Shown in pieces: positions 6,097-40,928 of a stretch of DNA of 64,000 nt. The position numbers were made by a program, and so were the translations under genes. This DNA is from an uncultured Aquimarina sp. (GTDB lineage Bacteria; Bacteroidota; Bacteroidia; Flavobacteriales; Flavobacteriaceae), in the NCBI GenBank assembly GCA_947500845.1, contig CANMTP010000006.1:186001-250000 (forward strand). Direction: 5' to 3'. The notes beneath the pieces were generated by a model. That model was not told where the DNA came from, did no database searches, and saw only the letters and a program-made list of their open reading frames with translations. How positions within the stretch are numbered: the stretch's first letter is position 1; each line of letters starts with the position of its first letter.

Positions 6097-8977
6097 AATG
6101 TATATATTCTAATTGGTTAATTGCTTCTAAAAATTTTTGTCCTATTTTGGCAAAGCCTTTATCATTAGGATGAATTTCATCGTACCATTCGTTCTTTTTT
6201 ACCAAAGTTCGCATATCAATGTATGTAGCGTTTTTATGCTTATCTGTTATTTCTTTAAGTAATTGATTAAACCTATCGATTAGGTATTGTATTACATTAG
6301 ATCGGTCTTCTATTGTTATAATTCCTTTTTCGATCAGATATTTATTGACCCAACCATTTTTGATCGTTTTATGATGATGATCTGCACGAACATAATCATA
6401 CCCGTGTACGAAAACTTGCTCTACAAAATCAAACTCGTGAATTCGATTAAAAAAGTAATTATAGGTACCTTCTATATCTTTCGTTTTTTGAGTATAGGTG
6501 CTATTTAAGTATTCTGAAGGTTGAAGACCAGAGGGCATTCCGCTTTTGAGAATATTCACAATTTCAGGCCCAATAATATCGTTTCCGCCTCCACTGATTA
6601 AGACATATTTTGGTCGCTCTTTTTCTATTTCTTTAAGAAGTTGTCTACTCTCTCTATAATTTTGTATTTCATCTCCTGCCGCAGCGATACTGCGTAAAGG
6701 ATATTTTTCCATAACATAATCCAGTGTATCCTTGACCAAAAACGGAAATAAGAACCAGGAATCTCCTTCGGCAACAATAACCGGTAATTCGGGAAATAGT
6801 CTTTTGGATTTTTTAAACCTGCGATATCGCCGTTTATCATCCAAATGATTTCCTAATTTAATCAGTAATCCAGATACATCTTTGGTTTTTACTTCTTTTA
6901 AGGTGGTAGAAGATTTTATTTTGGTATCTATCGCAAAGCCTTTCTGTTCAGGTTTAGTATATAAAGAATTAATAAACGGCGCTACAATCTCATGATTTGA
7001 ATACCATTCCCAATTATCAATAATTTTACTACCTGTAGTATTATAATTTGGATTAATAAGCTGTAAGGAAGATGTAAATATCGCCCATTTTGTTTTATCG
7101 GGTAAGAAATCAGAGATTGCTCCATGGGCCATTAAATTTCCGTAATGTGTCATTGGCGGTGTTAGCCCTACCTGGTTCATATCAGGGATAGAAGGAGTAA
7201 TATCTTCTTTATCATTTACAATAAACTTATAGATAAGCCAGTCATGCTTCCAATTATAAATCTCTTTATAAGAGTCTAGAGACCAACCGGCATAAGGAGC
7301 ACTACTATGTTCATAGAACATGATAGATTCTCCTGGTTTTAATTGTTTGGTTTGATGATCCAGAGGATCCGAAGAAATTGCCAGATCAGAACCTAATAAC
7401 AAAGCAGTAACAAAAATCTCTTGCTTTGAAATATTTGAAACTTTGATCTGATACTTTTGATAATATTCATTATTTCTTGTTAAGCTATTTTCAATCGTAA
7501 CAAGTTCATGATTTGTATTCGTTATATCCGACCAGTTTGAGTTATCGTTTACACAAATTTCAACCTTAATAGGTATTTTAGAAAAACCTCCTTCCGGGTT
7601 CTCCAACGTATTATAGTAATTCCATTTTAAAAGAGACTCTAGTTGATTTGATAATCTTTGGTCTAGTTCTTCTTTGGAAGTTGCCAAAAGGTCAATCTGA
7701 ACGTTAAGGGGGCGATATACATCATCTGGCAGGGTTATGTATGCTGTTTGATTGAAAATTGTGATAAAGAAAGAAGCTTCACTAGCTGTGGATAGTAATA
7801 TTCTTGGAGTACCTTGTATAACTTTTGTGATTTGTTGTTTGGCATTTTGATCTTTGTCCAAATCACAAATATGAATACGTAAAGAGTCAAAGATGGTTTC
7901 GGTTTCTACAGCATACGATTGGGTGAAATCTAATAAAATACCGTTCTCGATTGGATCCTGTATCAGCGAATCTTCAAGATTTACTTCTGTAATCTTAGTA
8001 GGTATAGATTTGTTTTGATCTATTTTTATCGTTATTTCAGACCCTTTTTTAATCCCGGATAATTGTCCTTTATTATAATACCATCCATTTTTATTATTGA
8101 AAAGAATCTTACCTTGATCAATGTATGATTGTTTAGGTGTAAGATTAAGCCAGGAACAATAGTGATCTATCTTGCCTTTACCCTGAACACTTAGCGTTGG
8201 AGTTTGTTTTTTGTGGGTTATATCTTTTAAGCTGATTTTTGCCCATTTCGTGATATCAAGATAGCTTATCTTACTGTTTTTTGCTTGTAAGAGCTGTAAC
8301 AGGTATCGAGTAAACACACCTCCTTTTGCATCTTCCCAGGATGATTCTGAAGACAGACAAGCAGAAAGATGTATTGAGTTTTTATAAGAGATCAAAGAAG
8401 TTACTTTTTTTGATTTAAGATCTTCCTCCCTAATCTCATTGGAAAATATGAAATCTTCATAGGCTCTTGGTGGAAATACACTACTCAGTTTTCGTTGTCT
8501 CGAATCATTATTTTTTACAGCGCTAAGTGACCTTACAATATCGCCAGAGTGGCAACAATCAAACACAGTTACTAAGTGTGGGTCATTTTTAAATTTTGAA
8601 AATATATATCGCAGTTCTTTATCCGCTAATAGAAACGACGTTTTATTTTCGTCTTCCTGATCGTAACATACAAGACATTCCATTAAGCCCGAATGAACAT
8701 CGCTAAACCTACCTAAACTCTCCTCTAAGGTGCCATGCCCACTATAATAAAACAAGACAACATCATTATCAGTTGCTTTAGTAAGGAAGTTATTTATTAT
8801 ATTCAGAATGCCTGATTTGGTGGCTTTTTTATCAATAAGCTTTTTGATAAAAATAGCATCATATGAGGTATTTAGTGTATTTAAGTACGTTTCAACCTTA
8901 TGTACATCACTAACACATTGTTGTAAAGGATATAGCTCATATTCATTTATTCCGACAAGTAATGTGTAAAGGTTCAT
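6083..8977 (-). CDS. Caspase-like (peptidase C14) protease fused to a C-terminal SGNH hydrolase
   Basis: The start chosen is the ATG at 8977 because MNLYTLLVGINEYE is the usual first strand of C14 proteases. An upstream in-frame ATG at 9028 would add 17 residues (964 versus 981 aa). Residues 1-260 form the caspase domain, with His81 in FYYSGHG and Cys142 in FDCCHSGD. Residues about 300-660 are beta-rich and unrecognised; caspase-linked sandwich domains are common there. Residues about 725-955 are an SGNH/GDSL hydrolase: Ser740 in EGDSW, Asn799 in SGGGND, and Asp933/His936 in YDEIHPND. No signal peptide is visible, so it is probably cytoplasmic. It heads the four-gene operon and overlaps the gasdermin-like gene by 14 bases, so it is a good candidate for the activating protease. 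Joining a caspase to a possible lipid or ester hydrolase on one chain is unusual. Confidence 0.88.
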   Translation of the reverse strand: MNLYTLLVGINEYELYPLQQCVSDVHKVETYLNTLNTSYDAIFIKKLIDKKATKSGILNIINNFLTKATDNDVVLFYYSGHGTLEESLGRFSDVHSGLMECLVCYDQEDENKTSFLLADKELRYIFSKFKNDPHLVTVFDCCHSGDIVRSLSAVKNNDSRQRKLSSVFPPRAYEDFIFSNEIREEDLKSKKVTSLISYKNSIHLSACLSSESSWEDAKGGVFTRYLLQLLQAKNSKISYLDITKWAKISLKDITHKKQTPTLSVQGKGKIDHYCSWLNLTPKQSYIDQGKILFNNKNGWYYNKGQLSGIKKGSEITIKIDQNKSIPTKITEVNLEDSLIQDPIENGILLDFTQSYAVETETIFDSLRIHICDLDKDQNAKQQITKVIQGTPRILLSTASEASFFITIFNQTAYITLPDDVYRPLNVQIDLLATSKEELDQRLSNQLESLLKWNYYNTLENPEGGFSKIPIKVEICVNDNSNWSDITNTNHELVTIENSLTRNNEYYQKYQIKVSNISKQEIFVTALLLGSDLAISSDPLDHQTKQLKPGESIMFYEHSSAPYAGWSLDSYKEIYNWKHDWLIYKFIVNDKEDITPSIPDMNQVGLTPPMTHYGNLMAHGAISDFLPDKTKWAIFTSSLQLINPNYNTTGSKIIDNWEWYSNHEIVAPFINSLYTKPEQKGFAIDTKIKSSTTLKEVKTKDVSGLLIKLGNHLDDKRRYRRFKKSKRLFPELPVIVAEGDSWFLFPFLVKDTLDYVMEKYPLRSIAAAGDEIQNYRESRQLLKEIEKERPKYVLISGGGNDIIGPEIVNILKSGMPSGLQPSEYLNSTYTQKTKDIEGTYNYFFNRIHEFDFVEQVFVHGYDYVRADHHHKTIKNGWVNKYLIEKGIITIEDRSNVIQYLIDRFNQLLKEITDKHKNATYIDMRTLVKKNEWYDEIHPNDKGFAKIGQKFLEAINQLEYIHYENM

Positions 8978-9080
8978 AATCGTATACTCTTTTATTAATA
9001 AATATGGACGATGCAATTGATAAACCAATAACTGCGAATACGGTAGATAACGCTATATGTTAAGAAAAAATAGGGGTACT

Positions 9081-10310: not shown

Positions 10311-11636
10311 ATGAGTAAAGTATTACCCAAAGGCCATAAAAAATTGTTAAATGCCTGGGCTTTCTATGATTGGGCAAATTCGGTATATAACTTAACTATT
10401 TCTTCGGCTGTTTTTCCAATTTTTTGGGGAGCCTTGACTATTTTAAGGGATGATCAAGACAATATTATAAACGATACCGTAAGGTTTTTAGGATATGATT
10501 TCAATAACGATTCTTTAATCAGCTATGTCACTGCATTGGCATTTCTGGTAGTATCAATAATAAGTCCGTTGCTTTCTGGTATTGCCGATTATGTGGGGAA
10601 TAAGAAAAATTTCTTAAAATTCTTTTGTTATCTGGGGGCGATATCATGTATCGGTTTGTATTGGTTTTCTTTAGAATTCCTTTGGTTTGGCCTACTGTGT
10701 TATTTTTTAGCTTTAATTGGCTTCTGGGCCAGCTTAGTGTTTTACAACTCATATTTACCCGATATTGCTTTTCCCGAACAGCAAGATGCTATTAGTGCCA
10801 AAGGATTTTCTATGGGCTATATCGGGAGTGTGTTGCTTTTGATCGTAAATCTTGTCATGATCTTGAAGTTTGATTGGTTTGGTTTCGAAGATGAAGGTAC
10901 TCCTACACGGTTGTCTTTTGTAATGGTTGGTATTTGGTGGATTGGTTTTAGTCAGTATACATATTACTATTTACCCAAAGGGAACAAGAAAGATGTATTA
11001 ACCAAAGCAGTGGTTTTTAATGGTTTTAAAGAGCTTAAAATGATTTGGAAAGCACTAAAAAATAATATTAAACTGCGAAGATATCTCAGTGCTTTTTTTG
11101 TGTATAGCATGGCCGTACAGACTATAATGCTAATTGCTACGTATTTTGGTATTGAAGAATTAGATTGGGGAGAACAAAACCCTACTACAGGACTAATTAT
11201 CAGCATTCTTTTGATTCAGCTTGTGGCGGTTGCAGGAGCTATTTTAACCTCCAGAGCGTCTTCAAAATTTGGCAATATAAAAACGCTCATTGCCATTAAT
11301 GTAATATGGATCGGAATATGCATTTATGCATATACTATAACAACTCCATTTCAATTTTATATAGCAGCAGCTATTGTTGGGCTAGTCATGGGAGGGATAC
11401 AAGCACTCTCTAGATCCACATATTCAAAGTTGTTGCCAAAAGATGCAATTGATACAGCTTCTTACTTTAGTTTTTATGATGTTTCAGAAAAAATTGGAAT
11501 CGTTATTGGTATGTTTTCATATGGTATCGTTGCTCAACTGACAGGAAGTGTAAGATATTCTATATTGTTCCTTATTTTGTTCTTCATCATTGGTCTTATG
11601 TTACTTTTTAGAGTTCCAAAAAATAACAGTTTTTGA
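10311..11636 (+). CDS. MFS transporter, UMF1 family
   Basis: This 441-aa integral membrane protein has about 12 hydrophobic segments. It begins with the signature of the UMF1 (Atg22-like) branch of the major facilitator superfamily, LLNAWAFYDWANSVYNL at about residues 12-28. The loop GIADYVGNKKNFLKF near 92-106 corresponds to the conserved MFS loop 2-3 motif. Yeast Atg22 exports amino acids from the vacuole; the substrate of bacterial members is not established. The gene stands alone between a terminator and a 220-base AT-rich gap. The family call is firm and the substrate is unknown. Confidence 0.88.
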   Translation: MSKVLPKGHKKLLNAWAFYDWANSVYNLTISSAVFPIFWGALTILRDDQDNIINDTVRFLGYDFNNDSLISYVTALAFLVVSIISPLLSGIADYVGNKKNFLKFFCYLGAISCIGLYWFSLEFLWFGLLCYFLALIGFWASLVFYNSYLPDIAFPEQQDAISAKGFSMGYIGSVLLLIVNLVMILKFDWFGFEDEGTPTRLSFVMVGIWWIGFSQYTYYYLPKGNKKDVLTKAVVFNGFKELKMIWKALKNNIKLRRYLSAFFVYSMAVQTIMLIATYFGIEELDWGEQNPTTGLIISILLIQLVAVAGAILTSRASSKFGNIKTLIAINVIWIGICIYAYTITTPFQFYIAAAIVGLVMGGIQALSRSTYSKLLPKDAIDTASYFSFYDVSEKIGIVIGMFSYGIVAQLTGSVRYSILFLILFFIIGLMLLFRVPKNNSF

Positions 11637-11859
11637 TAAGAGATAAATATTATTCTGAATGAGGTAAGTAATGCTCTAACTTTTCTTTACTATTGAATCT
11701 TATTAGCACTGAAGGATTTAAATTTAGTTTAACTATAAAAAAAGCCGTTTATCTAATTCTTTATATTAATTTTCTTTTTAAGATTGAGTTCTAATAGAAA
11801 TATAATAATATTTGAAGCGTTATTAATATTAATTATTTTTACAAATAAAACCAACAACA

Positions 11860-12339
11860 ATGAAAAATCTTACGTTACTGCTGGCGGTTATTCTACTGGC
11901 ATCATGCAATACTACCCAACAAACGGTTATTGCTGCAAAAAAAACATTAAAAGGAGAGTGGTCCTTGGATAATATCACTTACGATCGTAGTGGTATATTT
12001 GATGTAAATCTATACGACGACGCTTCTGCAGAATGTTTTACAGGAAGTACTTGGAAATTTATTCCTAACAATAATACAGGAATGTATATGATCGATAGAA
12101 GCGATTGTGTTTCCACAGGAGCGCGTAATTTTAGATTTACGATTCCCAAACCAGAATCAGACGGTGAATATTACTTTTTGTTCAAGCCTATTAATGAGAA
12201 GAAAAAAAGTACAAATAACAATGCCGGTTATAGAATGGCTTTAAAACATCTGGATGACACTACAATGACTTGGGCCATGACGGTGAGTTTAGAGGGAAAA
12301 CCTTTTGTTATTACTATGAATTTCAATAAATTACAATAA
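11860..12339 (+). CDS. Lipocalin-like lipoprotein
   Basis: The 159-aa protein has a signal peptide with lipobox LLASC (Cys16), followed by a compact beta-rich domain beginning LKGEWSLDNITYDRSG. The pattern GEW...L, then GSTWKFIPNNNTG with an internal cysteine pair (AECF, SDCV), fits the small lipocalin-like lipoproteins common in Flavobacteriaceae. It sits 17 bases upstream of the OmpA-family gene on the same strand, so the two are probably co-transcribed and both reach the outer membrane. The ligand is unknown. An overlapping frame starting at 11784 has no protein-like character. Confidence 0.75.
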   Translation: MKNLTLLLAVILLASCNTTQQTVIAAKKTLKGEWSLDNITYDRSGIFDVNLYDDASAECFTGSTWKFIPNNNTGMYMIDRSDCVSTGARNFRFTIPKPESDGEYYFLFKPINEKKKSTNNNAGYRMALKHLDDTTMTWAMTVSLEGKPFVITMNFNKLQ

Positions 12340-12356
12340 ACAAAAATATATCCAAA

Positions 12357-13049
12357 ATGACACAAATTTTTAAAAATATAGGAGTGATGATTATAGCTGT
12401 GGCTATTTTATCAAGTTGTGAGGCTACAAAAAATGCCAACAACACACAAAAAGGAGCCGTAATTGGTACTGCTGGTGGTGCAATACTTGGTGGTATCATA
12501 GGAAACAATGTTGGAAAAAGAAATTCTGCACTTGGTGCCGTAATCGGTGGAGTAGTAGGAGGAGTTGCCGGAGGTGTGATCGGTAAACAAATGGATAAAC
12601 AAGCACAAAAAATTGAATCAGAAATACCTGGAGCAGAAGTAACAAGAGTAGGTGAGGGTATTGATGTTGTTTTTGATGAGAATAGTGGGGTGTATTTTGC
12701 TACAAATAAATCAGACATTAATGCAAAGTCACAGGCCAATCTTAATAAACTGGCGGGTATATTTAAAGAATATCCCGATACTAATATCATTGTAGAAGGA
12801 CATACCGATAGTACTGGTGATGATAGTTATAATATGACATTATCACAAAAAAGAGCAAATGCAGTGACTGAATATTTGGTGTCGCAGGGGATTAGCAGAA
12901 GTAGACTTACTACTTATGCTCATGGTGAAACGCTTCCAAAATATGATAATTCTACCGCAGAAGGAAGAGCTAAAAACAGAAGAGTTGAAATAGGTATCGT
13001 TGCGAACGAGAAAATGAAACGGGAGGCTCAAAATCAAGTGAAGCAATAG
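12357..13049 (+). CDS. OmpA-family lipoprotein with glycine-zipper segment
   Basis: The 230-aa protein has a lipoprotein signal (ILSSC, Cys21). A glycine-zipper membrane segment at about 31-80 (GAVIGTAGGAILGGIIG and a second GGVVGGVAGGVIG stretch) is followed by an OmpA C-terminal peptidoglycan-binding domain at about 110-220. The domain is recognised by GHTDSTGDDSYN, the SQKRANAV helix and GRAKNRRVEI. Such proteins link the outer membrane to peptidoglycan through diaminopimelate. It follows the lipocalin-like gene closely and is followed by a terminator, forming a two-gene unit. The family assignment is firm. Confidence 0.92.
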   Translation: MTQIFKNIGVMIIAVAILSSCEATKNANNTQKGAVIGTAGGAILGGIIGNNVGKRNSALGAVIGGVVGGVAGGVIGKQMDKQAQKIESEIPGAEVTRVGEGIDVVFDENSGVYFATNKSDINAKSQANLNKLAGIFKEYPDTNIIVEGHTDSTGDDSYNMTLSQKRANAVTEYLVSQGISRSRLTTYAHGETLPKYDNSTAEGRAKNRRVEIGIVANEKMKREAQNQVKQ

Positions 13050-13070
13050 TTTTATTTTAATATACATAAA

Positions 13071-13098
13071 AATCCCGAAACTAAATCGGGATTTTTTT
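13071..13098 (+). terminator. Rho-independent terminator after the OmpA-family gene
   Basis: AATCCCGA (13071-13078) and TCGGGATT (13086-13093) form a perfect stem followed by a T run. It separates the envelope genes from the polyketide cluster. Confidence 0.9.
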
Positions 13099-13123
13099 AT
13101 GCTTTAATTTTACGTATCTTCAT

Positions 13124-14257
13124 ATGATGAATTCTCATTCACACATAGTTATCATCGGCGGGGGCTTGGCTGGATTAACTTCTGCAATTCATCTTGCAAA
13201 AGCAAATATTCCTGTTACACTTATTGAAAAAGACACATATCCAAAACATAAAGTATGCGGTGAGTATATTTCTAATGAGGTGTTGCCTTATTTCAATTAT
13301 TTAGGAATTGATCTTGAAAGCTTACAACCAGTTGAAATTTCAGAATTCACGATAAGCACTCAGAACGGAAACACTATTCATAGTAAATTACCATTAGGCG
13401 GTTTTGGGATGAGTAGATATACCTTGGACTACTATCTATGGCAAAAGGCTGAAGCGATGGGGGTACACCTTATAAATGATCAAGCCCTTGATGTGCAGTT
13501 TAATGATAATCAATTTCAGATTAAAACCAACGGCAATAAATGGTTAACCAGTGAATATGTCATTGGCGCTTTTGGAAAGCGTTCTGTCCTGGATAAAGCC
13601 TTGAAGAGAGTTTTCAGTTTTAAAAAGTCACCATGGTTAGCGGTAAAAGCACACTATAAAGCGAGTTTTGAAACAAATATGGTCGCACTGCACAATTTTA
13701 AAGGTGGTTATTGCGGGCTTTCAAAAGTCGAAAATAATTTGGTGAATGTATGTTATTTGGTCAATTATGACAGCTTCAAAAAATATAGAGATATCAATAC
13801 TTTTCAGGAAAAAGTAATGTATAAGAACCCATATTTGCTTGATTTTTTTAAGGAAGCTGAATTAATTTTTGATAAACCCATTACGATAAGTCAGGTAAAT
13901 TTTGATAAGAAAAAACCAGTTGAAGATCACATATTCATGTTAGGCGATGCTGCAGGATTAATTCATCCGCTTTGCGGTAATGGTATGGCAATGGCCATAA
14001 AAAGTTCAAAAATATTATGTGAACTAATAATAGCTAATGCTAATAATAATGCAAAACTCTCTAGAAAAGAGATTGAAAATCAATATATAAAACAATGGAA
14101 CTCTTCTTTTTCCAAAAGATTATATACAGGTAGGATACTACAAAAAGTACTGTTAAACAAAAATTTGCAAAAAGCATCATACGCAATTGCTCACGCATTA
14201 CCTGCCATTATCCCTAAAATTATTAAACAAACACACGGAGAACCTATTGTATGCTAA
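13124..14257 (+). CDS. FAD-dependent oxidoreductase (geranylgeranyl-reductase-like) of the type III PKS cluster
   Basis: The 377-aa flavoprotein shows the dinucleotide-binding motif IIGGGLAGLTSAIHLAK at about 9-25, the CGEYIS motif near 45-50 seen in FixC/GGR-like oxidoreductases, and the second FAD motif LGDAAGLIHPLCGNGMA near 272-288. This fold covers aromatic hydroxylases, halogenases and polyprenyl reductases. Next to a type III polyketide synthase, hydroxylation or oxidation of the phenolic product is the likeliest role. It is the first gene of the cluster and overlaps the methyltransferase start by 7 bases. Two ATG codons stand together at the start; either may be used. The exact reaction is inferred. 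Confidence 0.82.
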   Translation: MMNSHSHIVIIGGGLAGLTSAIHLAKANIPVTLIEKDTYPKHKVCGEYISNEVLPYFNYLGIDLESLQPVEISEFTISTQNGNTIHSKLPLGGFGMSRYTLDYYLWQKAEAMGVHLINDQALDVQFNDNQFQIKTNGNKWLTSEYVIGAFGKRSVLDKALKRVFSFKKSPWLAVKAHYKASFETNMVALHNFKGGYCGLSKVENNLVNVCYLVNYDSFKKYRDINTFQEKVMYKNPYLLDFFKEAELIFDKPITISQVNFDKKKPVEDHIFMLGDAAGLIHPLCGNGMAMAIKSSKILCELIIANANNNAKLSRKEIENQYIKQWNSSFSKRLYTGRILQKVLLNKNLQKASYAIAHALPAIIPKIIKQTHGEPIVC

Positions 14258-14970
14258 TCAACTTAGAACATAGAAGCAATGAACCAGAACTTATGGATGA
14301 CCCAAAGATAGCAGATGCTTCTTTAAAAATTGCCTTGTCTGATCTCTCCAGGGTAAATCGAATGCTGGGAGGAAATAGTATTACTATAAACGCAGTTCAT
14401 AAGCTGATAGAAGGGCAACATCAAAAAGTAGAATTCACCATACTTGATTTGGGGTGTGGTGATGGAGAAATGTTAAGAGCACTTGCAAAATCGTTTAGAA
14501 GAAAAAAAATAAAAGTAAAACTTATAGGTGTTGATTTGAATGAGAAAAGCTTATCTTATGCAAAAAAATTAAGTAAATCATATCCAGAAATTACATATTC
14601 TAAATTGAACCTTTTAGACATTGAAACCTCAGAGTTTTTTTGTGATGTGATCATCTGTACATTGACCTTACATCACCTTACTTGTCAGGAAATTAAAAGC
14701 GTTATGCAAAAGTCTGTAGAGCTGGCAAAAATAGGGGTCGTAATCAACGATCTTCATAGAAGCCAGTTAGCCTACTATCTTTTTAAAATATTCAGTTTCT
14801 TTTTTATTAAAGGAAAGGTTGCAAAAAATGATGGTTTAATCTCTATCAAGAGAGGGTTCAAAAAAAAAGAGTTAATAGACTATACCGAAGCACTCGGTTT
14901 AAAAAAATATCGAATCGACTGGAAATGGGCTTTCCGATATCGATGGATTGTCGAAACCAGTCATTTTTAA
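14251..14970 (+). CDS. Class I SAM-dependent methyltransferase of the type III PKS cluster
   Basis: The 239-aa protein carries SAM motif I, TILDLGCGDGEMLRAL, at about 63-78, an acidic residue at the end of the next strand (LIGVDLNEKS), and the CTLTLHHL motif IV region near 136-143. A hydrophobic stretch near 175-188 may form the acceptor pocket. It overlaps the FAD oxidoreductase and precedes the polyketide synthase by 18 bases, so the three are very probably translated from one message. O- or C-methylation of the polyketide product is the natural guess; the class of fold is clear, the substrate is not. Confidence 0.82.
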   Translation: MLINLEHRSNEPELMDDPKIADASLKIALSDLSRVNRMLGGNSITINAVHKLIEGQHQKVEFTILDLGCGDGEMLRALAKSFRRKKIKVKLIGVDLNEKSLSYAKKLSKSYPEITYSKLNLLDIETSEFFCDVIICTLTLHHLTCQEIKSVMQKSVELAKIGVVINDLHRSQLAYYLFKIFSFFFIKGKVAKNDGLISIKRGFKKKELIDYTEALGLKKYRIDWKWAFRYRWIVETSHF

Positions 14971-14988
14971 ATAAAAAAGTAGAAAAAT

Positions 14989-16041
14989 TTGGAGGTAAAA
15001 ATTACCACGGTGGCCAAGGAACTGCCACAATATGTACGGGAGACTAAAGAAATATTACCCTTCGTTTCTCAATGGTTATCAGGTCAGGAAGATCGTTTTA
15101 GACGTAAAGTCCTTAAAATATTTGAAAATGCTGCCGTAGATAAACGCTACGGGATTATGAGTATAGAGGAAGTGTTTACAGCAACCTCTTTCGAAGAAAA
15201 AAATGACATTTATATACGAGAGGTCAAGAAATTAGGTACTGCTGTTTTAAAAAAGGCATTGCACCAATCGGAATGGGATGCAAAATCCTTAGATTATATC
15301 ATTACAGTAAGTTGTACAGGTATTATGATACCCTCTCTGGATGCTTATTTAATCAATGATCTTAATCTAAGACAGGATATCATAAGACTTCCTGTTACAG
15401 AAATGGGTTGCGCAGCTGGAGTTTCCGGAATTATTTATGCAAGAAATTTTCTGCAATCAAATCCCGGCAAGAGAGCTGCTGTTATTGCTATCGAATCACC
15501 AACCGCTACGTTTCAATTAGATGATTACAGCATGACCAATATGGTGAGTGCAGCTATTTTTGGGGATGGAGCCGCTTGCACACTTCTGTCTTCTGAAGAA
15601 GATGCCGTAGGACCAAGAATTATAGGAGATGAAATGTATCATTTCTATGATGCAACTACGATGATGGGCTTCAACCTAACAAATGGAGGGCTGCAAATGG
15701 TACTGGATCAAGAAGTTCCCGCAAAAATAGCAGCGCATTTTCCAAAAGTGATCCATCCATTTTTAAAAAAATATGATAAAACAATTGAAGACGTAGACCA
15801 TCTTATTTTTCATCCTGGAGGAAAAAAAATCGTGCAAACTGTTGAAGAGCTTTTTACTCATTTGGGTAAAAATATTGAGGATACCAAGGCCGTTTTGTTA
15901 GAGTATGGAAATATGAGCAGCGCTACTGTATTATACGTTCTAGAACGTTTTATGAATAGAAATCCGGCACCGGGAGAAACCGGATTGATGCTTAGTTTTG
16001 GACCCGGATTCTCTGCACAGCGAATATTGCTGGAGTGGTAA
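14989..16041 (+). CDS. Type III polyketide synthase
   Basis: The 350-aa protein is a chalcone-synthase-fold enzyme with the complete triad: Cys141 in TEMGCAAG, His275 in LIFHPGGKK and Asn308 in YGNMSSATV, plus the C-terminal GFGPG-like loop SFGPGFS. These enzymes extend an acyl starter with malonyl-CoA and cyclise it to pyrones, resorcinols or resorcylic acids. The start is a TTG at 14989, since no ATG occurs until residue 57, well inside the fold. It lies between the methyltransferase and the enoyl reductase. Clustering with an ACP, ketosynthase and dehydratase suggests a starter delivered from a dedicated type II fatty-acid-like line rather than a free CoA ester; that link is inference. Confidence 0.93.
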   Translation: MEVKITTVAKELPQYVRETKEILPFVSQWLSGQEDRFRRKVLKIFENAAVDKRYGIMSIEEVFTATSFEEKNDIYIREVKKLGTAVLKKALHQSEWDAKSLDYIITVSCTGIMIPSLDAYLINDLNLRQDIIRLPVTEMGCAAGVSGIIYARNFLQSNPGKRAAVIAIESPTATFQLDDYSMTNMVSAAIFGDGAACTLLSSEEDAVGPRIIGDEMYHFYDATTMMGFNLTNGGLQMVLDQEVPAKIAAHFPKVIHPFLKKYDKTIEDVDHLIFHPGGKKIVQTVEELFTHLGKNIEDTKAVLLEYGNMSSATVLYVLERFMNRNPAPGETGLMLSFGPGFSAQRILLEW

Positions 16042-16072
16042 AATCAAATAAAAGAAACTACTTAATGAGTTT

Positions 16073-16864
16073 ATGAGTAAAGATTTTGATAATAAAAATG
16101 AGTGGGTGCTTGTACTCGGGGGGAGCACCGGTTTGGGATTAGCTTCTGTAAAAAAATTAGCAGAACACGGTATGAACATCATAGTAATCCATCGGGATCG
16201 CAAAAGTGATTTACATCAAATCGAGAAGGATTTTCTTGAAATTAAAAATATGGGGGTCAAATTTCTATCGTATAACACTGATTTGCTGAAATCAGAAAAA
16301 CGAGAAGAGATTGTATCACATATTGATCAAGGTATTGAGAAAGGAAAAATTAAGGCTCTAATCCATAGTGTAGCCAAAGGTAATTTGAAACCCATGACTG
16401 GTGCAGAGCAAGTGTTAAGAAATGATGATTTTCATTTAACTATAGATGCTATGGCTATTAGCCTTTATGATTGGGTGAAATCTGTTTTTGAAGCTAATTT
16501 GTTTGCTGAAGATGCCAGAGTGATTTCCTTTACCAGTGAGGGTAATACCAAAGCCTGGAAAAATTATGCGGCAGTATCGGCTGCCAAAGTGGCTCTGGAA
16601 GCCATAACAAGAAGTATCGCTTTAGAATTTGCTCCTTACGGAATCAAAGCCAATTGCTTACAACCGGGGGCGGTAGATACAAAATCCTTACGAATGATAC
16701 CCGGACATGAAAAAATTATTGCACATAGCGTAGAACGTAACCCTTTTAATCGTATTACAACCCCAAAAGATGTAGCGAATGTAGTATATTTATTATGTAA
16801 AGATGAAGCATCCTGGATTAATGGCTGTATACTACCTGTAAATGGAGGTGAACATTTAAATTAG
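16073..16864 (+). CDS. SDR-family enoyl-reductase-like protein (FabL type)
   Basis: The 263-aa protein has a Rossmann start LVLGGSTGLGLASVKKL (about 13-29) and a catalytic tyrosine and lysine spaced Y-X6-K (NYAAVSAAK). That spacing marks enoyl-ACP reductases FabI/FabL; ketoreductases have Y-X3-K. The following ALEAITRSIALEFAPYGIK, QPGAVDT and the final ILPVNGG also match FabL. It would reduce trans-2-enoyl-ACP to acyl-ACP with NAD(P)H. Its place between the type III PKS and the FabZ-like dehydratase supports a dedicated chain-building set. A ketoreductase is not otherwise present in the cluster, so either the housekeeping FabG serves or this enzyme has another role. Confidence 0.8.
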   Translation: MSKDFDNKNEWVLVLGGSTGLGLASVKKLAEHGMNIIVIHRDRKSDLHQIEKDFLEIKNMGVKFLSYNTDLLKSEKREEIVSHIDQGIEKGKIKALIHSVAKGNLKPMTGAEQVLRNDDFHLTIDAMAISLYDWVKSVFEANLFAEDARVISFTSEGNTKAWKNYAAVSAAKVALEAITRSIALEFAPYGIKANCLQPGAVDTKSLRMIPGHEKIIAHSVERNPFNRITTPKDVANVVYLLCKDEASWINGCILPVNGGEHLN

Positions 16865-16904
16865 AAAGTGTACAGTAATAGTAATGACATGATAAAATAA
16901 AAAT

Positions 16905-17390
16905 ATGAAAACGATACTCATTTTTTATCTACCTGTTATACTGAATGTAATATCTTGTAAAGAAGATAATAATAGTGCCGAAATCACCCCTTCTGTTATA
17001 AATACAAATGCTACTGCAGAAATTGTAAGTGTATCGGTTACAGGAGAGGAGAATAGGTATTCTTTTAGTGTAGGTATCAAAAGTCCGGATACAGGTTGTG
17101 ATCAGTATGCCAATTGGTGGGAAGTAATTTCTGAAGATGGAAATCTTATTTACAGAAGGATTTTAGCACACAGTCATGTTAGCGAACAACCTTTTGTGAG
17201 ATCTGGAGGTCCGGTTGCCATAAAAAAAGATCGAATAGTCTATGTTCGGGCTCATATGAACACAAGTGGTTATGGAGAAAAAGTCTTTAAAGGTAATGTA
17301 GCCGAAGGTTTTAAAGAAAGCACCTTGGATAAGACTTTTGCTATGCAATTAGAGACAACACCTCCTTTACCAAGTGGATGTGCATTTTAA
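16905..17390 (+). CDS. Lipoprotein of unknown function within the polyketide cluster
   Basis: The 161-aa protein has a signal peptide ending at the lipobox NVISC (Cys18), then an acidic, Thr/Asn-rich linker and one compact beta-rich domain of about 110 residues. The domain has two cysteines (DTGCDQYANWWEV and PSGCAF at the C-terminus) that could pair across its ends. I do not recognise the family. It lies 40 bases after the enoyl reductase and 12 bases before the dehydratase, on the same strand, so it is likely co-transcribed. It could help place a lipid product at the envelope, but its location is the only hint. Confidence 0.65.
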   Translation: MKTILIFYLPVILNVISCKEDNNSAEITPSVINTNATAEIVSVSVTGEENRYSFSVGIKSPDTGCDQYANWWEVISEDGNLIYRRILAHSHVSEQPFVRSGGPVAIKKDRIVYVRAHMNTSGYGEKVFKGNVAEGFKESTLDKTFAMQLETTPPLPSGCAF

Positions 17391-17402
17391 ATTATAAGTA
17401 CA

Positions 17403-17852
17403 TTGATTAGAAAAGATATCATAGAAAAGTTACCGTATGCAAAACCTTTTTTGTTTGTCGATGAGATTTTAGAACTTAATGACAATCATATCGTTGGAAG
17501 TTATACTTTTTTAAAAGATGAATATTTCTATGAAGGACACTTTAAGGATAATCCTATCACTCCCGGGGTAATCCTAACAGAATGTATGGCGCAAATCGGA
17601 ATGGCTTGTTTTGGGATACACCTTCTTAGAGATGCCTGGGATCAGGAACAATGGAGCGTAGCTATGACCAGTAGCGAAGTAAATTTTTACAAACCCGTTT
17701 TTCCTGGTGAAAAAGTTATTGTGAAAGCAGAAAAGGTTTATTTTAGATTTAATAAACTCAAATGCAATGTAGTGATGTATAATACTAAAGAGATCATCGT
17801 GGCAAAAGGGGTGGTTGCCGGAATTGCATTTCAAAACAAAAACGAATCATGA
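17403..17852 (+). CDS. FabZ-like 3-hydroxyacyl-ACP dehydratase
   Basis: The 149-aa hotdog-fold protein shows the FabZ signatures PFLFVDEI (15-22) and GHFKDNPITPGVILTE (45-60), with the catalytic pair His46 and Glu60. The length matches FabZ. The start is a TTG at 17403; no ATG precedes the conserved core. The stop overlaps the next gene by 4 bases, indicating coupled translation. It should dehydrate 3-hydroxyacyl chains on the cluster's own ACP, upstream of the FabL-like reductase. The housekeeping FabZ is normally placed with lpx genes in this phylum, so this copy is most likely pathway-specific. Confidence 0.88.
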   Translation: MIRKDIIEKLPYAKPFLFVDEILELNDNHIVGSYTFLKDEYFYEGHFKDNPITPGVILTECMAQIGMACFGIHLLRDAWDQEQWSVAMTSSEVNFYKPVFPGEKVIVKAEKVYFRFNKLKCNVVMYNTKEIIVAKGVVAGIAFQNKNES

Positions 17853-18748
17853 GTTTTGCATATTCTTTGGTCAAATTGGTACTGAAACTGAAAAAAGAAA
17901 AGCAATCCTGGTCAGAGGATCCAATCGATTATATAAAAAAAAGAAAGCAAGATTTAAAAATTCCGAATAAATCTAATCTATTTGGTAATGAAGTTGAAAC
18001 CAGAGAGATTAATGAATGTAATATCACTACAATCATCCCAAAAGAAATAAGAACAGAGTATCTTATATTATTTTGTCATGGTGGCGCATTTATTTATGGT
18101 CCTACCAAACATCATTGGAATGCCGTATCAAAGATGGTACGAGAAACACATACAAAAGCATGGTTAATTGACTATCCTAAAGCTCCAGAAAACAACATTC
18201 AAAAAATTACTAAAAATATATGTGAGGTTTATAATCATGCGGTCAAAGAGTATGACCCTTCAAAGATTATTATGATTGGGGATTCTGTAGGTGGTAATCT
18301 TTTGACCTCTTTAACTCAGGGCTTGGTAAGAGATAATGCTGAGACTCCTAATCTATTAATTCTTATTACACCTTTGATGGACGCGAGTCTTACCAATACT
18401 GCAATAAAAGATATCGATCCCTTAGATCCAATACTGAGTTTTAAAGGGGTTCATTCTGCAAAAAAAATGTGTGCAGGGGATTTTTCTTTAAAAGATCCTT
18501 TGATCTCTCCACTCTATGGTTCTTTTGCCAACTTTCCGAAGATCTATCTATTCATGGCCACAAATGATATTCTTATGCCAGATCAAAAATTATTTATCGA
18601 TAAAGTTAAAGATAATGGCGGAAAAATTGAAGTGATTTTGGGAGAAGACATGCCTCATATTTGGCCATTTTTACCATTCATGCCCGAGGCGAAGAAAGCA
18701 ATGCACAAAATAATTTCTATTATCAATGAAGCTGTAAATGAGGAATAG
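17849..18748 (+). CDS. Alpha/beta hydrolase (HSL-type esterase) of the polyketide cluster
   Basis: The 299-aa protein belongs to the hormone-sensitive-lipase-like esterases. It shows the oxyanion motif HGG at 77-79 (LFCHGGAFIYG), the nucleophile Ser146 in GDSVGG, Asp240 in ATNDILMPDQ and His270 in MPHIWPF. It overlaps the dehydratase by 4 bases and the ketosynthase by 11 bases, so it is embedded in the biosynthetic operon. Possible roles are release of a chain from the ACP, editing, or hydrolysis of a product ester. No signal peptide is present, so it acts in the cytoplasm. Confidence 0.85.
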   Translation: MSFAYSLVKLVLKLKKEKQSWSEDPIDYIKKRKQDLKIPNKSNLFGNEVETREINECNITTIIPKEIRTEYLILFCHGGAFIYGPTKHHWNAVSKMVRETHTKAWLIDYPKAPENNIQKITKNICEVYNHAVKEYDPSKIIMIGDSVGGNLLTSLTQGLVRDNAETPNLLILITPLMDASLTNTAIKDIDPLDPILSFKGVHSAKKMCAGDFSLKDPLISPLYGSFANFPKIYLFMATNDILMPDQKLFIDKVKDNGGKIEVILGEDMPHIWPFLPFMPEAKKAMHKIISIINEAVNEE

Positions 18749-20018
18749 ACGAGTAGTAATTACAGGTTTGGGAGTAATGGCTCCTAATGGAACGAACGTT
18801 TCAGAATTTAAAGAATCTATCATCAACGGGACTAGCGGAATACGAGGTGTTGAAGAATTAAAGAATCTAAAATTTTCTTGTCACATTGCTGGTTTACCGA
18901 ATTATAACGAAAATTACTTAAACCATTACTTCAATAAAATTCAGTTACGGGGTTTAAAGGCATCCGGAATGGAATACGGCGTCATTGCCGGTATGGATGC
19001 ATGGAAAGATGCAGGATTAGTAATTAATGATTCACAAGTACCTCGATGGGATGCAGGGGTAATTTTTGGTACCGGAATTTTGGGTGTAGATAAGTTTCGT
19101 GAGGCCATTTATAAAGTAGACGAAGGTAACGTAAGAAAATTGGGTAGCACTACCGTTATTCAAACTATGGCCAGTGGTATTAGTGCTTTTTTGGGGGGAA
19201 TGCTAGGATGCGGAAACGTGGTCACCACAAACTCTTCGGCTTGTAGTACAGGTACAGAGGCTATTTTAATGGCCTATGATAGAATTGCCGCTGGTAACGC
19301 AGAGATTATTCTCGCTGGCAGTACTAGTGATAGTGGGCCTTATGTATGGGGCGGATTTGATGCAATGCGTATTCTACCCTATAAATATAATGACAACCCC
19401 ACGAAGGCCTCACGGCCAATGAGTGCAACTGCAAGTGGTTTTGTACCGGGAAGTGGAGCAGGGGCCCTGGTCGTCGAAAGTCTGGATAGTGCTCAAAAAC
19501 GTGGTGCGAAGATTTATGCTGAAATCTTGGGCGGACATGTAAATAGTGGCGGACAACGTAATGGAGGTAGTATGACAGCCCCAAACAGTGAAGCCGTTCA
19601 ACAATGTATTAAAAACGCGATCAATACTTCTGGAATACAAGCCAACGACATTGATGCTATTAATGGTCACTTAACCGCAACTACCAAAGATCCGACCGAA
19701 ATTAAAAATTGGTGTGAAGCCCTCGATCGAAAAGAAACTGATTTTCCATACATTAATTCACTTAAAAGCTTAGTTGGACATTGTTTGGCGGCTTCCGGAA
19801 GTATAGAAAGTGTTGCTACCATTTTACAACTTAATGAAGGCTTTATTTTTGGAAATATCAACTGTGAAGATTTGCATCCCGAAATCCAATCTCAGATAAA
19901 TAGGGATCAAGTACCGACAAAAACATTTGATTTTTCTGCAAATATCATAGCAAAAGCAAGTTTTGGATTTGGAGATGTAAATGCTTGTGTTATCTTTAAA
20001 AAATATAATTCGATTTAA
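18738..20018 (+). CDS. FabF-like beta-ketoacyl-ACP synthase of the polyketide cluster
   Basis: The 426-aa thiolase-fold protein has the full elongating-ketosynthase triad: Cys169 in NSSACSTGTEA, His311 in INGHLTATTKDPTE and His348 in LVGHCLAASGS. The residues after His311 (HLTATTKDPTE) differ from the HGTSTPLGD pattern of housekeeping FabF and resemble specialised ketosynthases of secondary pathways. No chain-length-factor partner is seen. It starts inside the hydrolase gene and is followed after 5 bases by the ACP gene. It should extend acyl chains on that ACP to make the type III PKS starter; the chain length cannot be read from the sequence. Confidence 0.9.
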   Translation: MRNRRVVITGLGVMAPNGTNVSEFKESIINGTSGIRGVEELKNLKFSCHIAGLPNYNENYLNHYFNKIQLRGLKASGMEYGVIAGMDAWKDAGLVINDSQVPRWDAGVIFGTGILGVDKFREAIYKVDEGNVRKLGSTTVIQTMASGISAFLGGMLGCGNVVTTNSSACSTGTEAILMAYDRIAAGNAEIILAGSTSDSGPYVWGGFDAMRILPYKYNDNPTKASRPMSATASGFVPGSGAGALVVESLDSAQKRGAKIYAEILGGHVNSGGQRNGGSMTAPNSEAVQQCIKNAINTSGIQANDIDAINGHLTATTKDPTEIKNWCEALDRKETDFPYINSLKSLVGHCLAASGSIESVATILQLNEGFIFGNINCEDLHPEIQSQINRDQVPTKTFDFSANIIAKASFGFGDVNACVIFKKYNSI

Positions 20019-20023
20019 AAATA

Positions 20024-20281
20024 ATGACGACAAAAGAAGATTTACTTTTAAAATTAAAAACTATAATTACTCCGTATGTTCAAAATCAAGAAGGTTTAGA
20101 GAACCTGAATGAGGGTACTGATTTTATTAAAGATCTTGAGATTAACTCGGCCAATTTGGTAGATGTTGTACTGGATGTTGAAGATGAATTTGATATTGAA
20201 ATTGATAATGAAGCTATGGAAAAAATGCTTACTGTAAAGGCTTCAATCGAAGTGATAGAAGGTAAATTGGCAGCAAAATGA
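20024..20281 (+). CDS. Acyl carrier protein
   Basis: The 85-aa acidic helical protein shows the carrier-domain pattern DFIKDLEINSANLVDVVLDV with the likely phosphopantetheine-bearing serine at Ser42, in INSAN instead of the usual DSL. The second half, EDEFDIEIDNEAMEKM, matches ACP helix III. It sits between the ketosynthase and a phosphopantetheinyl transferase and overlaps the latter by 4 bases (ATGA), so carrier and activating enzyme are produced together. It should carry the growing chain for the cluster. The family call is firm. Confidence 0.92.
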   Translation: MTTKEDLLLKLKTIITPYVQNQEGLENLNEGTDFIKDLEINSANLVDVVLDVEDEFDIEIDNEAMEKMLTVKASIEVIEGKLAAK

Positions 20282-20817
20282 TTGGTAATGATATTGTAGA
20301 TCTACAACTCGCCAGTATACAGAGTAATTGGCAGAGAAGGGGATGGTTACAAAAAATATTTACACAACTCGAACAAAAAGAAATTTATAACTCCTCAAGT
20401 CCGGACTTACAAGTATGGAAATTTTGGAGTATGAAAGAGGCCGCTTACAAAGCACATCAACGATGTTTTTATCATGCTCCGACATTTAATCCAAACAAAA
20501 TTGAATGTGTATCGGCGACAAGTGTATGCATAGAAAAATACGTATATGAGCTTACAACAGAGTTTACAAAGCAATATGTATACAGTATTGCCAGAAGTAC
20601 GGGTGCTTATTATTATTCTAAAATATTTCAAGCAGAAATAAATCCAAGGGAAGAACTTAAAAAACTGATACTTAGCAGTATTAGAAAAAAAGATAGACTT
20701 TATTTTAAAAAGGACTCCAATGGTATTCCAAATTTGTACATCGATGGAAGATGCTCAAAAATTCCTTTCTCCTTAACGCATCATGGAGATTATTCTGCTT
20801 ATGTGATGTTGTCGTAG
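20278..20817 (+). CDS. 4'-phosphopantetheinyl transferase
   Basis: The 179-aa protein has the two metal and CoA signatures of the AcpS/Sfp superfamily: MIGNDIVDL at the N-terminus and FWSMKEAAYKAHQR at about 49-62 (the WxxKEAxxK motif). The ending (IPFSLTHHGDYSAYVMLS) also fits. It moves the phosphopantetheine arm from CoA to the ACP serine. Its start overlaps the ACP gene and it is the last gene of the cluster, 6 bases from the convergent YceI-like gene. It is probably dedicated to the neighbouring ACP. Confidence 0.9.
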   Translation: MIGNDIVDLQLASIQSNWQRRGWLQKIFTQLEQKEIYNSSSPDLQVWKFWSMKEAAYKAHQRCFYHAPTFNPNKIECVSATSVCIEKYVYELTTEFTKQYVYSIARSTGAYYYSKIFQAEINPREELKKLILSSIRKKDRLYFKKDSNGIPNLYIDGRCSKIPFSLTHHGDYSAYVMLS

Positions 20818-20823
20818 ACTGTT

Positions 20824-21405
20824 TTATTTCAGAATTGGGAAATAGAATTGAATATTCAATTTGTTCCTTTCACGTTCATCATAAATAGAAACCCCAAAAT
20901 CACTGGTATAGATGGTAGCTTTACCGAGCAGCTTTTTATCATCCAGCGAAAAAGTTAGAATAACCTCTTTTTGTGTTCCTTTTATAGTAAGATTGCCTAT
21001 CACTTTATACGTATTGGTTTCAAAAGGAACAACTTGTTTACTTTTGAAGATAATTTTTGGATATTTTCTTTTATAAAAATACTTTTCCCACATCAGATGT
21101 CCGTCTCGTAGAAAATTATCCGTATCTAATGTTTTGACCAAGGCAGTTCCACTAAAAGAAGCATTATCTGGATCTGCAGGATTAAAATCTATTCTAAAAT
21201 CCAAACCACTAATAGTTCCCGAGGTCTCATCTTCTATAAAATCAAAAGTGACCTTGGACTTTTCATTATCAAACTCTAAGCTTTTAAAATCATTGATCAA
21301 CGCATAATCACCAGAATAGGAAACATATCCATCATTAGGTAACGTTGTCTGACCAAATCCTTGCAAAGTGCATAGACCAATAATAATATTGAGAAATATT
21401 CTCAT
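20824..21405 (-). CDS. YceI-family exported protein
   Basis: The 193-aa protein has a signal peptide (ILNIIIGLCTLQGFGQ) and a YceI-like lipocalin-type beta barrel: VTFDFIEDETSGTISGLDFRIDF, then SFSGTALVKTLDTDNFLRDGHL, FKSKQV and a C-terminal GVSIYDERERNKL. YceI proteins bind isoprenoid or other lipophilic molecules in the periplasm. It is convergent with the polyketide operon, 6 bases from its last gene, so it need not be co-regulated. A lipid carrier next to a lipid-making cluster is suggestive but may be chance. Confidence 0.8.
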   Translation of the reverse strand: MRIFLNIIIGLCTLQGFGQTTLPNDGYVSYSGDYALINDFKSLEFDNEKSKVTFDFIEDETSGTISGLDFRIDFNPADPDNASFSGTALVKTLDTDNFLRDGHLMWEKYFYKRKYPKIIFKSKQVVPFETNTYKVIGNLTIKGTQKEVILTFSLDDKKLLGKATIYTSDFGVSIYDERERNKLNIQFYFPILK

Positions 21406-40913: not shown

Positions 40914-40928
40914 TTAATTCTATAGGAA

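Follow-up and report, generated by a model that had tools for sequence, protein, structure and literature searches.

A conserved type III polyketide synthase operon of Aquimarina and other Bacteroidota, probably for a phenolic lipid, with its own type II acyl line

How does a type III polyketide synthase (PKS) obtain its acyl starter when an acyl carrier protein (ACP), a ketosynthase (KS) and further enzymes of fatty-acid type are encoded beside it? The question arises at a locus of an uncultured Aquimarina sp., contained in a 64,000-nucleotide stretch of DNA that was analyzed whole and that we call the window. In the available portions of three surveys, type III PKS clusters make up 9% of predicted clusters in Flavobacteriaceae (PMC7440613) and 10.74% in a 2,680-genome study of that family (PMC10734526), and the third found at least one in each of its Aquimarina genomes (PMC9323603). 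The accessible part of the literature examined assigns no product to the Flavobacteriaceae type III PKS clusters. A preliminary description of the present locus had called for a comparison with clusters of solved product; in the open-licence PMC literature, so far as its text was accessible, no product is assigned to this cluster and no identical cluster with a solved product appears. We think it fairly probable that the locus is one biosynthetic operon, srs/hid-like, for a tailored phenolic lipid of the alkylresorcinol type, and that its PKS is fed by a dedicated type II ACP/KS line.

The ten collinear genes with start-stop overlaps of the preliminary description are all present on the plus strand at 13124-20817 (Table 1). 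Four of the nine gene junctions overlap (by 7, 4, 11 and 4 bp), and the remaining five are spaced by 18, 31, 40, 12 and 5 bp. Within 13124-20817, no internal terminator was found at any junction, nor any gap above 40 bp that would set apart an ACP-KS unit. A scan for sigma-70-type promoters was uninformative (31 matches versus 36.7 expected), and no Bacteroidetes-type TTG/TAnnTTTG promoter pair occurs within 13001-20900. Two upstream genes, one OmpA-like and one encoding 159 aa, were considered as further members; this is disfavored in the window because an 11-pair terminator-like site separates them from the cluster. Each of the two adjoins the cluster in 61 of the 89 related loci described below. 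Pfam and NCBIfam agree with the gene families originally proposed for nine genes, except that the reductase is only FabL-like, and the tenth gene (16905-17390), previously unnamed, is lipoprotein-like. The ACP exceeds the PP-binding cut-off narrowly (20.9 versus 20.8 bits).

Table 1. Genes of the cluster and the site preceding it, in window coordinates
Feature	Positions	Strand	Remarks
Intrinsic terminator-like site, 11-pair stem + T-run	13068..13096	+	between upstream OmpA-like gene and cluster
FADox, FAD-dependent oxidoreductase, halogenase/PHBH-fold flavoprotein	13124..14257	+	FAD_binding_3; ring oxidation presumed
MT, SAM methyltransferase, UbiG/UbiE-like	14251..14970	+	Pfam/NCBIfam methyltransferase; tree
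Type III PKS, distinct lineage	14989..16041	+	Chal_sti_synt N and C; triad C141-H275-N308; altered P171, A173, F228, E138, Q344
FabL-like enoyl-ACP reductase (ENR)	16073..16864	+	SDR; Y165-x6-K172, no ketoreductase Tyr at K-4
Lipoprotein-like protein	16905..17390	+	without family match (Pfam/NCBIfam)
FabZ-like 3-hydroxyacyl-ACP dehydratase	17403..17852	+	FabA-like domain/FabZ; H46, E60
HSL-family alpha/beta hydrolase (esterase)	17849..18748	+	Abhydrolase_3; GDSVGG
FabF-type ketosynthase (KS)	18738..20018	+	ketoacyl-synt N and C; C169-H311-H348
Acyl carrier protein (ACP)	20024..20281	+	PP-binding; attachment Ser42 in INSAN
4'-phosphopantetheinyl transferase (PPTase)	20278..20817	+	ACPS

Conservation supports a single unit. 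The 89 loci listed comprise the best 80 of 552 confirmed relatives plus 9 hand-picked, more distant ones, a sample biased to close kin; they were selected on the PKS alone, not on neighboring genes. The order FADox-MT-PKS-(ENR)-FabZ-KS-ACP-(PPT) is kept in 89/89. Because these relatives were chosen only for their PKS, this constancy places the adjacency beyond chance: two operons lying side by side by accident are ruled out, and the unity originally proposed is borne out as co-inheritance. KS is present in all 89 loci, FADox and MT in 88 (the sole exception, L053, lies at a contig end), FabZ in 88 (absent from L174), and ACP in 88 (the miss, L109, is again at a contig end). Reductase and PPTase are optional members of the gene set: the FabL-like reductase, present here as described earlier, is nonetheless dispensable (71 loci with it, 18 without), and PPTase occurs in 53, leaving 36 with none detectable. 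In some genera, a 143-aa protein without a match in a Pfam search replaces the PPTase. The core gene set is not confined to Aquimarina. By contrast, the lipoprotein (18 of the 22 loci titled Aquimarina in their records, L033-L054, versus 0 of the 67 others) and the esterase-fold hydrolase (13/22 versus 0/67) were found only in that genus among the listed loci, and do not belong to the core.

A cluster-owned acyl line, as first suggested, fits the genome, which holds a second ACP, KS, FabZ and PPTase besides the cluster copies. Specifically, two ACPs, two PPTase-family genes, two KSs (36% identical, the second being the sole other KS found) and two FabZs (the second inside a 469-aa frame) were found. 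The KS Cys-His-His set is intact in 90/90 aligned rows; the FabZ His/Glu pair and the ACP Ser (73 rows) are likewise conserved among relatives, in counts that rest on ORF calls and are hence smaller than the locus counts. The reductase keeps its Tyr and Lys in 72/72 rows, always with Tyr at K-7 (Tyr-x6-Lys, not Tyr-x3-Lys) and with V or I at K-4. We term it only FabL-like because its top NCBIfam match, FabL (NF005975), reaches 153 bits, short of the curated cut-off of 328. Five other SDRs of the same genome outscore it on that model, and no PDB chain matched its sequence at 1e-30. Among the ten cluster proteins, Pfam and NCBIfam reveal neither a ketoreductase nor a malonyl transferase nor a KASIII-type starter enzyme; thus, the acyl line is not self-sufficient.

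The PKS scores over the Pfam cut-offs for PF00195 and PF02797, and the latter family is matched once in the genome. The triad C141, H275 and N308 is present in 90/90 rows; the cluster enzyme also has an SFGPG motif. The acyl pocket carries invariant changes, with P171 for Cys, A173 for Leu and F228 for Trp. P171 and E138 set the enzyme apart from all 32 compared enzymes, so acceptance of long chains is not assured. The structural model (pLDDT 90.8) has as its nearest fold PKS11 (Z 49.2, rmsd 1.6, 347 aligned) and as its second CylI (Z 46.5), both long-chain users; THNS scores 44.7. PKS11 of M. tuberculosis (PDB 4jap) is the nearest solved structure by sequence as well, at 163.9 bits versus 152 for the malonyl-only enzyme THNS. 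It is, however, only 29% identical, and where it has Cys and Leu in a Cys-Ser-Leu-Thr stretch, the cluster PKS has Pro and Ala. Cys109 occupies the position of THNS Cys106, and 13 of the 32 other enzymes share this Cys. Via the 9-residue spacing to Met237, we map the F228 column to ArsB Trp281, which, according to the part of PMC6274091 available, favors a resorcinol over a pyrone. Membership in the DpgA family was rejected (170.6 bits versus an NCBIfam cut-off of 425), and a Nonomuraea replicon sequence was discarded as a DpgA anchor, its motifs looking alkylpyrone-type instead.

The tailoring genes have a different history from the PKS. In nine other Bacteroidota loci, hereafter PKS-MT-FADox loci, a type III PKS with hid-type gene content adjoins both an MT and a FADox. 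MT and FADox each fall in one 100/100 clade uniting 17 cluster rows with 7 of these 9 loci; L153 and L167 lie outside it, and the FADox clade additionally holds a Bernardetia plasmid row. The preliminary description's pairing of MT and FADox with the PKS as tailoring partners is thereby upheld. Its presentation of the PKS holds as to family, but the enzyme has a changed pocket and belongs to a lineage other than that of the PKSs beside the same MT and FADox. Specifically, an AU test run after the tree was seen (24 cluster plus 9 PKS-MT-FADox rows versus 21 others) rejects a single PKS clade for the two groups (p 0.000748), and with it a hid-like identity of the cluster PKS. Several PDB rows of the PKS tree sit on long branches, and its grouping of PKS11 with CylI carries a warning that it may be false. 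Because MT and FADox share a clade across the two operon types while the PKS does not, the ring-forming PKS was exchanged. The PKS-MT-FADox rows are nested among cluster rows in the MT tree, and the FADox tree splits the two groups weakly (56/100, bootstrap not settled), so the exchange can be read in either direction. The best reading of the cluster PKS, judged from sequence comparison, is a re-specialized type III PKS of separate lineage. The best FADox match sits at the PKS locus in 8/8 PKS-MT-FADox genomes; together with the common clade, this indicates that the scaffold being tailored is probably of one kind in the two types of operon. Five genomes gave no FADox match, one of them (G299) being the genome of outlying L153, and G317 has a second match elsewhere (241.6 bits). 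The FADox model is nearest to flavin halogenases (best Z 35.9, PltA), with PHBH-type hydroxylases at 31-32; sharing a fold does not reveal function, and hydroxylation is therefore only a presumed activity. A sequence search of FADox against PDB chains gave five weak matches.

Other operons combine a type III PKS with a methyltransferase, as the cluster does. Those with an isoprenylcysteine-carboxyl-methyltransferase-like (ICMT) enzyme, which we take to be the bps operons, include 3/3 tested neighbors of other Bacteroidota type III PKSs. They differ in methyltransferase family and PKS clade and have no FADox and no fatty-acid cassette that we found; conversely, Pfam finds no ICMT match among the ten cluster proteins. 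Further parallels are hidABC (hierridin, picocyanobacteria) and a Planctomycetota operon, where MT, oxidoreductase and type III PKS occur together, and in the latter the PKSs acted as alkylresorcinol synthases; unlike for the cluster, the available part of the source names no KS, ACP, dehydratase, ENR or PPTase (PMC10896814). This srs/hid likeness is drawn from gene content, with MT and FADox adjoining the PKS in 88/89 listed loci, and from comparison with the Bacteroidota operons. For the acyl line, the ars operon of Azotobacter vinelandii offers a parallel, in that the type III PKSs ArsB and ArsC stand beside a dedicated fatty-acid line and receive their chain from the ACP of the ArsA FAS (PMC6274091; PMC3098273, each in part). 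The ars line is a type I multidomain FAS (ArsA/D), whereas the cluster encodes discrete type II proteins and lacks both KR and AT, and no ArsA/ArsD-like type I FAS lies beside its PKS. Gcs is a further precedent of an ACP-fed type III PKS (PMC6274091, same portion). In the cyl cluster (cylindrocyclophanes), as described in the accessible text, a chain on the free-standing ACP CylB is elongated by the type I PKS CylD/H and passed to CylI, giving an alkylresorcinol (PMC8086630). The ACP-held chain going to a type III PKS resembles our proposal; however, cyl uses type I PKS elongation, a halogenase and a dimerizing enzyme in place of type II KS, FabZ and ENR.

What follows is inference as regards the acyl chain, its transfer from ACP to PKS, the sequence of tailoring steps and the kind of ring. 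The notion is that the PPTase would place phosphopantetheine on the cluster ACP, where the FabF-type KS and FabZ, with the FabL-like reductase where present, would build or finish an acyl chain. Malonyl transfer and ketoreduction would be supplied by housekeeping enzymes. The PKS may then accept the chain as acyl- or beta-ketoacyl-ACP, add malonyl-CoA units and close the ring, which MT and the flavoenzyme would afterwards methylate and oxidize; the quinone or methoxy-phenol lipid of the preliminary description stays a conjectural product. A more far-reaching version, which we regard as rather unlikely, posits a widespread Bacteroidota class of phenolic lipids whose PKS lineage is freed from acyl-CoA and primed only by its partner-specific ACP. 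The dedicated KS's beta-ketoacyl-ACP, with no pathway ketoreductase acting on it, would pass to the remodeled pocket, and the operon would derive from a hid-like MT-FADox pair that swapped its PKS for an ACP-coupled one plus a type II cassette. One of the 89 listed loci, L077, favors the main reading and lowers the probability of this ACP-only, beta-ketoacyl version: between reductase and FabZ it carries an extra SDR with the classical Tyr-x3-Lys motif, expected if ketoreduction is part of chain building. Of the 25 NCBIfam rows listed for that SDR, none reaches its cut-off.

There are three rival explanations. The PKS could form its ring from malonyl-CoA or an ordinary acyl-CoA while ACP, KS and FabZ make a separate chain, joined later as an ester or by C-acylation, as in compound lipids. 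The altered pocket, the resemblance to THNS as well as PKS11, and the operon's esterase-fold enzyme would all suit such chemistry. Yet we judge it unlikely: the model is nearer PKS11 and CylI than THNS, the hydrolase is restricted to Aquimarina among the listed loci, and no acyltransferase recurs. Across the 89 listed loci, the FADox-KS interval holds in total six unassigned same-strand ORFs of at least 60 aa, spread over six different loci. Nor does any recurring unassigned ORF serve the rival in which the PKS provides an aromatic starter, in the manner of DpgA or THNS, for attachment to the ACP and elongation by KS, FabZ and ENR into an aryl-bearing fatty acid or polyene. DpgA is indeed the sole type III PKS model among ten NCBIfam matches, Cys109 has its THNS counterpart, and KS plus FabZ in the 18 loci without reductase would leave unsaturation. 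This route is nonetheless distinctly improbable, given how far the score lies from the DpgA cut-off, the absence of any CoA ligase or acyl-transferring enzyme from the ten proteins, and the occurrence of the same MT and FADox in PKS-MT-FADox operons, whose surroundings, as far as they were read, yielded no relative of KS or ACP.

That sharing of the MT and FADox clade speaks for the third rival: an ordinary acyl-CoA-fed alkylresorcinol or alkylpyrone operon of the hid, srs or bps kind, with an unexceptional PKS and a fatty-acid cassette that merely tunes chain length. CoA thioesters are the general substrates of type III PKSs, as stated in the part of PMC6274091 at hand. We give this explanation little credence, since the PKS lineage differs from that of the PKS-MT-FADox operons and carries invariant changes, and the universal presence of KS among the listed loci is too constant for an accessory.

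Our findings suggest that many Flavobacteriaceae type III PKS clusters are instances of a single fixed gene set. If an ACP-fed phenolic-lipid operon is indeed what the locus encodes, it would offer a compact, discrete type II model of how an ACP feeds a type III PKS, and could point the way to an abundant marine lipid. In the window's family, 249 genomes were sampled, and 85 of them, counting the genome of the window itself, carry the PKS subfamily at 57% identity or more.

The ten-gene operon is real and conserved: it is of the methyltransferase (MT)–FAD oxidoreductase (FADox)–type III PKS kind, with what appears to be an exchanged PKS and with its own type II carrier line. In order, its genes specify FADox, MT, the PKS, a FabL-like reductase, a lipoprotein-like product, FabZ, an esterase-fold hydrolase, a ketosynthase (KS), an ACP, and a PPTase. 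Pfam and NCBIfam bore out the gene list of the preliminary description; the lipoprotein-like product had no family match in either. The nine junction distances are, in order, -7, 18, 31, 40, 12, -4, -11, 5, and -4 bp. No plus-strand terminator-like site was found at any internal junction, and two plus-strand matches lie inside the PKS gene; over both strands, seven such sites were found versus 5.6 expected. The genome holding the window measures 4.7 Mb, and the closest named PKS relatives are Aquimarina (top identity 91% among the matches listed).

Features of the window and of relative loci (L-numbers)
Feature	Record	Position	Strand	Remark
Ten-ORF cluster	window	13124-20817	+	ORF calls
Terminator-like site, 11-pair	window	13068-13096		between upstream OmpA-like gene and cluster
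YceI-like gene	window	ends 20824	-	by reading its sequence; downstream, convergent with operon
Lipoprotein-like product	window	16905-17390	+	161 aa; conserved motifs WWE, HSHV, EQPF
Cluster KS	window	18738-20018	+	
Two-part protein	window	6083-9028	-	981 aa; by eye, N-part caspase-like (YYSGHG, DCCHSG), C-part SGNH hydrolase-like (GDSW, GGND)
G+C rise	window	38001-42000		up to 0.39-0.43 vs 0.29-0.38 in remaining 2-kb steps
Second SDR	L077, Salinimicrobium	11979-12761	+	between FabL-like reductase and FabZ
Protein behind ACP	L065	13848-14279	+	~143 aa
Extra gene	L066, Salinimicrobium	14726-15460		244 aa, no Pfam match
Transglutaminase-core protein	L048, Aquimarina	11089-11775		in or behind cluster
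Aspartyl-protease-like protein	L044, Aquimarina	11892-13007		in or behind cluster
FADox relative	L183, Bernardetia plasmid	5944-7161		40.6%

Relatives were chosen by the PKS alone. Specifically, 80 named relatives, the best of 552 confirmed ones, and nine more divergent ones gave 89 loci, in which the cluster genes were sought by tblastn. KS was present in 89/89 loci, FADox and MT each in 88 (L053 is truncated by a contig end), FabZ in 88 (absent from L174), and ACP in 88 (L109 is truncated by a contig end). The FabL-like reductase was found in 71 and the PPTase in 53; the lipoprotein (18 loci) and the hydrolase (13 loci) occurred exclusively within the 22 Aquimarina loci. Gene order was kept throughout, with zero violations, and the FADox-to-KS intervals held just six unassigned same-strand ORFs of at least 60 aa, spread over six different loci (n = 89). 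From these presence counts and this order, therefore, the core is FADox–MT–PKS–FabZ–KS–ACP. Its range extends to Chitinophaga and to one Saprospiraceae MAG.

The cluster PKS subfamily is sharply separate. Sampling of the window's family (249 genomes) gave a PKS match at 1e-30 in 86, counting the window's own. The G072 match (31%) belongs to another kind, and the remaining 85 stand at 57% identity or above (G150 in two pieces). Sampling of the phylum gave a match at 1e-20 in 173 of 395 genomes, and identities among the matches listed drop directly from 65% to 35%. The sole intermediate seen, in genome G191 (57%), comes with the full core (L160).

Individual loci vary. The second SDR of L077 has the classical Tyr-x3-Lys and is a possible ketoreductase; it reached no NCBIfam cut-off among the rows listed. 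The protein behind ACP in L065, and also in L056, L074, and L075, resembles a small membrane protein, gave no Pfam match (one tested), and often occurs in clusters where the search gave no PPTase, those of Maribacter, Zobellia, Eudoraea, and their relatives. The extra genes of L066, L048, and L044 are lineage-specific. Two clusters are possibly decaying: in L174, FADox is broken into two ORFs and the search detected no FabZ, and contig 1 of G150 carries the PKS as two neighbouring pieces.

Type III PKS loci of two additional kinds occur in other Bacteroidota. One kind has an ICMT-family methyltransferase beside the PKS (3/3 neighbours tested). The other has an MT and FADox of the cluster kind, and these PKS–MT–FADox loci hold no KS, ACP, or FabZ relative within the stretch read. 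In eight of eight PKS–MT–FADox genomes, the top FADox match sits at the PKS locus; at 1e-8, none was found in five other genomes (four with ICMT-type or other PKSs, and that of L153). In FADox and MT trees with weak inner nodes, 17 cluster rows and seven of nine PKS–MT–FADox loci form one 100/100 clade, with L153 and L167 outside it. The FADox relative on the Bernardetia plasmid, where no type III PKS is annotated within the 13 kb read, groups among the PKS–MT–FADox rows. The PKS tree, with long branches (several PDB rows), places the cluster rows in their own 100/100 clade (stem 2.0), and a 99/97 branch divides them from the PKS–MT–FADox loci; on the cluster side also stand PKS11, CylI, THNS, and 14 of 15 other Bacteroidota PKSs. 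Constraining the cluster and PKS–MT–FADox PKSs to group together was rejected (p = 0.000748). Across 20 cluster and nine PKS–MT–FADox loci, mean identities among cluster rows are 50.1% (FADox), 45.4% (MT), and 71.2% (PKS), versus 34.8, 30.1, and 28.6% between groups. The PKS is the most conserved of the three within the cluster group, yet the least similar between groups. Judged by these trees and identities, the cluster PKS appears to have been exchanged relative to MT and FADox, and either direction is possible.

The carrier line duplicates functions present elsewhere. Because searches of the window's own genome gave two KSs (the non-cluster KS is 36% identical and adjoins the second ACP on contig 7), two ACPs (the second at 34%), and two FabZ (the second at 42%, inside a 469-aa frame that is probably LpxC–FabZ), the operon supplies a second ACP/KS/DH set, together with its own PPTase. 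Searches of that genome also returned two PPTase-family genes and a single match to the type III PKS family. KS residues C169, H311, and H348 are kept in 90/90 rows, and FabZ H46 and E60 and ACP S42 are conserved. The window KS reads GFGDVN and NGHLTAT versus GFGGTN and NAHGTST in an aligned FabF chain. Both variants are largely conserved across the subfamily, and the changes suggest altered gating or specificity. The reductase shows Tyr-x6-Lys, spaced as in FabL/FabI (Y165, K172), in 72/72 rows and, at the ketoreductase Tyr position, V or I in all 72, never Tyr.

The PKS pocket was compared between 90 subfamily rows and 32 other type III PKSs (24 Bacteroidota loci, two from a plasmid collection, and six PDB chains). 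The triad C141–H275–N308 is unaltered in the subfamily. Five residues are invariant in all 90 rows: P171 (Cys in 29 and Ser in three of the others), A173 (Leu in 26/32), E138 (Gly or Phe in 29/32), F228 (Trp in 26/32), and Q344 (Glu in 31/32). P171 lies 30 residues past the catalytic Cys, the offset of CHS Thr194 and PKS18 Cys205, the latter listed among acyl-tunnel residues (PMC6274091, in excerpt). The F228–M237 spacing matches ArsC Gly284–Met293, where Trp (ArsB) versus Gly (ArsC) directs to resorcinol versus pyrone (PMC6274091, in excerpt). By analogy, the bulky Phe would favour resorcinol. An AlphaFold model of the PKS (pLDDT 90.8) is closest to PKS11 (Z 49.2, rmsd 1.6, 347 aligned), then CylI (46.5) and THNS (44.7). 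That of FADox (pLDDT 90.5) is closest to flavin halogenases, PltA scoring Z 35.9, and PHBH-type hydroxylases reach Z 31-32.

In the most probable scheme, the PPTase arms the cluster ACP, and KS, FabZ, and, optionally, the reductase would build the chain. There is no ketoreductase among the genes of the window's operon, so ketoreduction would have to be borrowed, with malonyl loading, from primary metabolism or, in a bold reading, be left out in the final round. The PKS would then accept the chain, add malonyl-CoA units, and close a phenolic ring, and MT and FADox would tailor the ring product. Because MT and FADox are common to operons with PKSs of different lineage, the two PKSs may deliver a similar scaffold. 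The product probably belongs to the phenolic lipids. The operon's enzymology is unusual and open to test.

Published excerpts provide precedents for type III PKSs fed by a carrier protein, namely ArsB/C and Gcs (PMC6274091) and CylI (PMC8086630); a search of open-licence PMC literature found no discrete type II set coupled to a type III PKS. Planctomycete PKSs from MT–oxidoreductase–PKS operons yield alkylresorcinols, and when the Gimesia MT and oxidoreductase genes were added, a single methylation resulted, probably at a carbon atom (PMC10896814, in excerpt). Excerpted surveys put the type III PKS share of Flavobacteriaceae clusters at 9% (PMC7440613) and 10.74% (PMC10734526), and report at least one such cluster in all Aquimarina genomes of PMC9323603. 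Excerpts of PMC9860996 describe a type III PKS family common to three Aquimarina strains as unlike any known-compound MIBiG cluster. These published clusters are likely the present one. Strain RHTr2 holds a type III PKS cluster (PMC9860996, in excerpt), and L055, the record bearing that name, carries the cluster described here.
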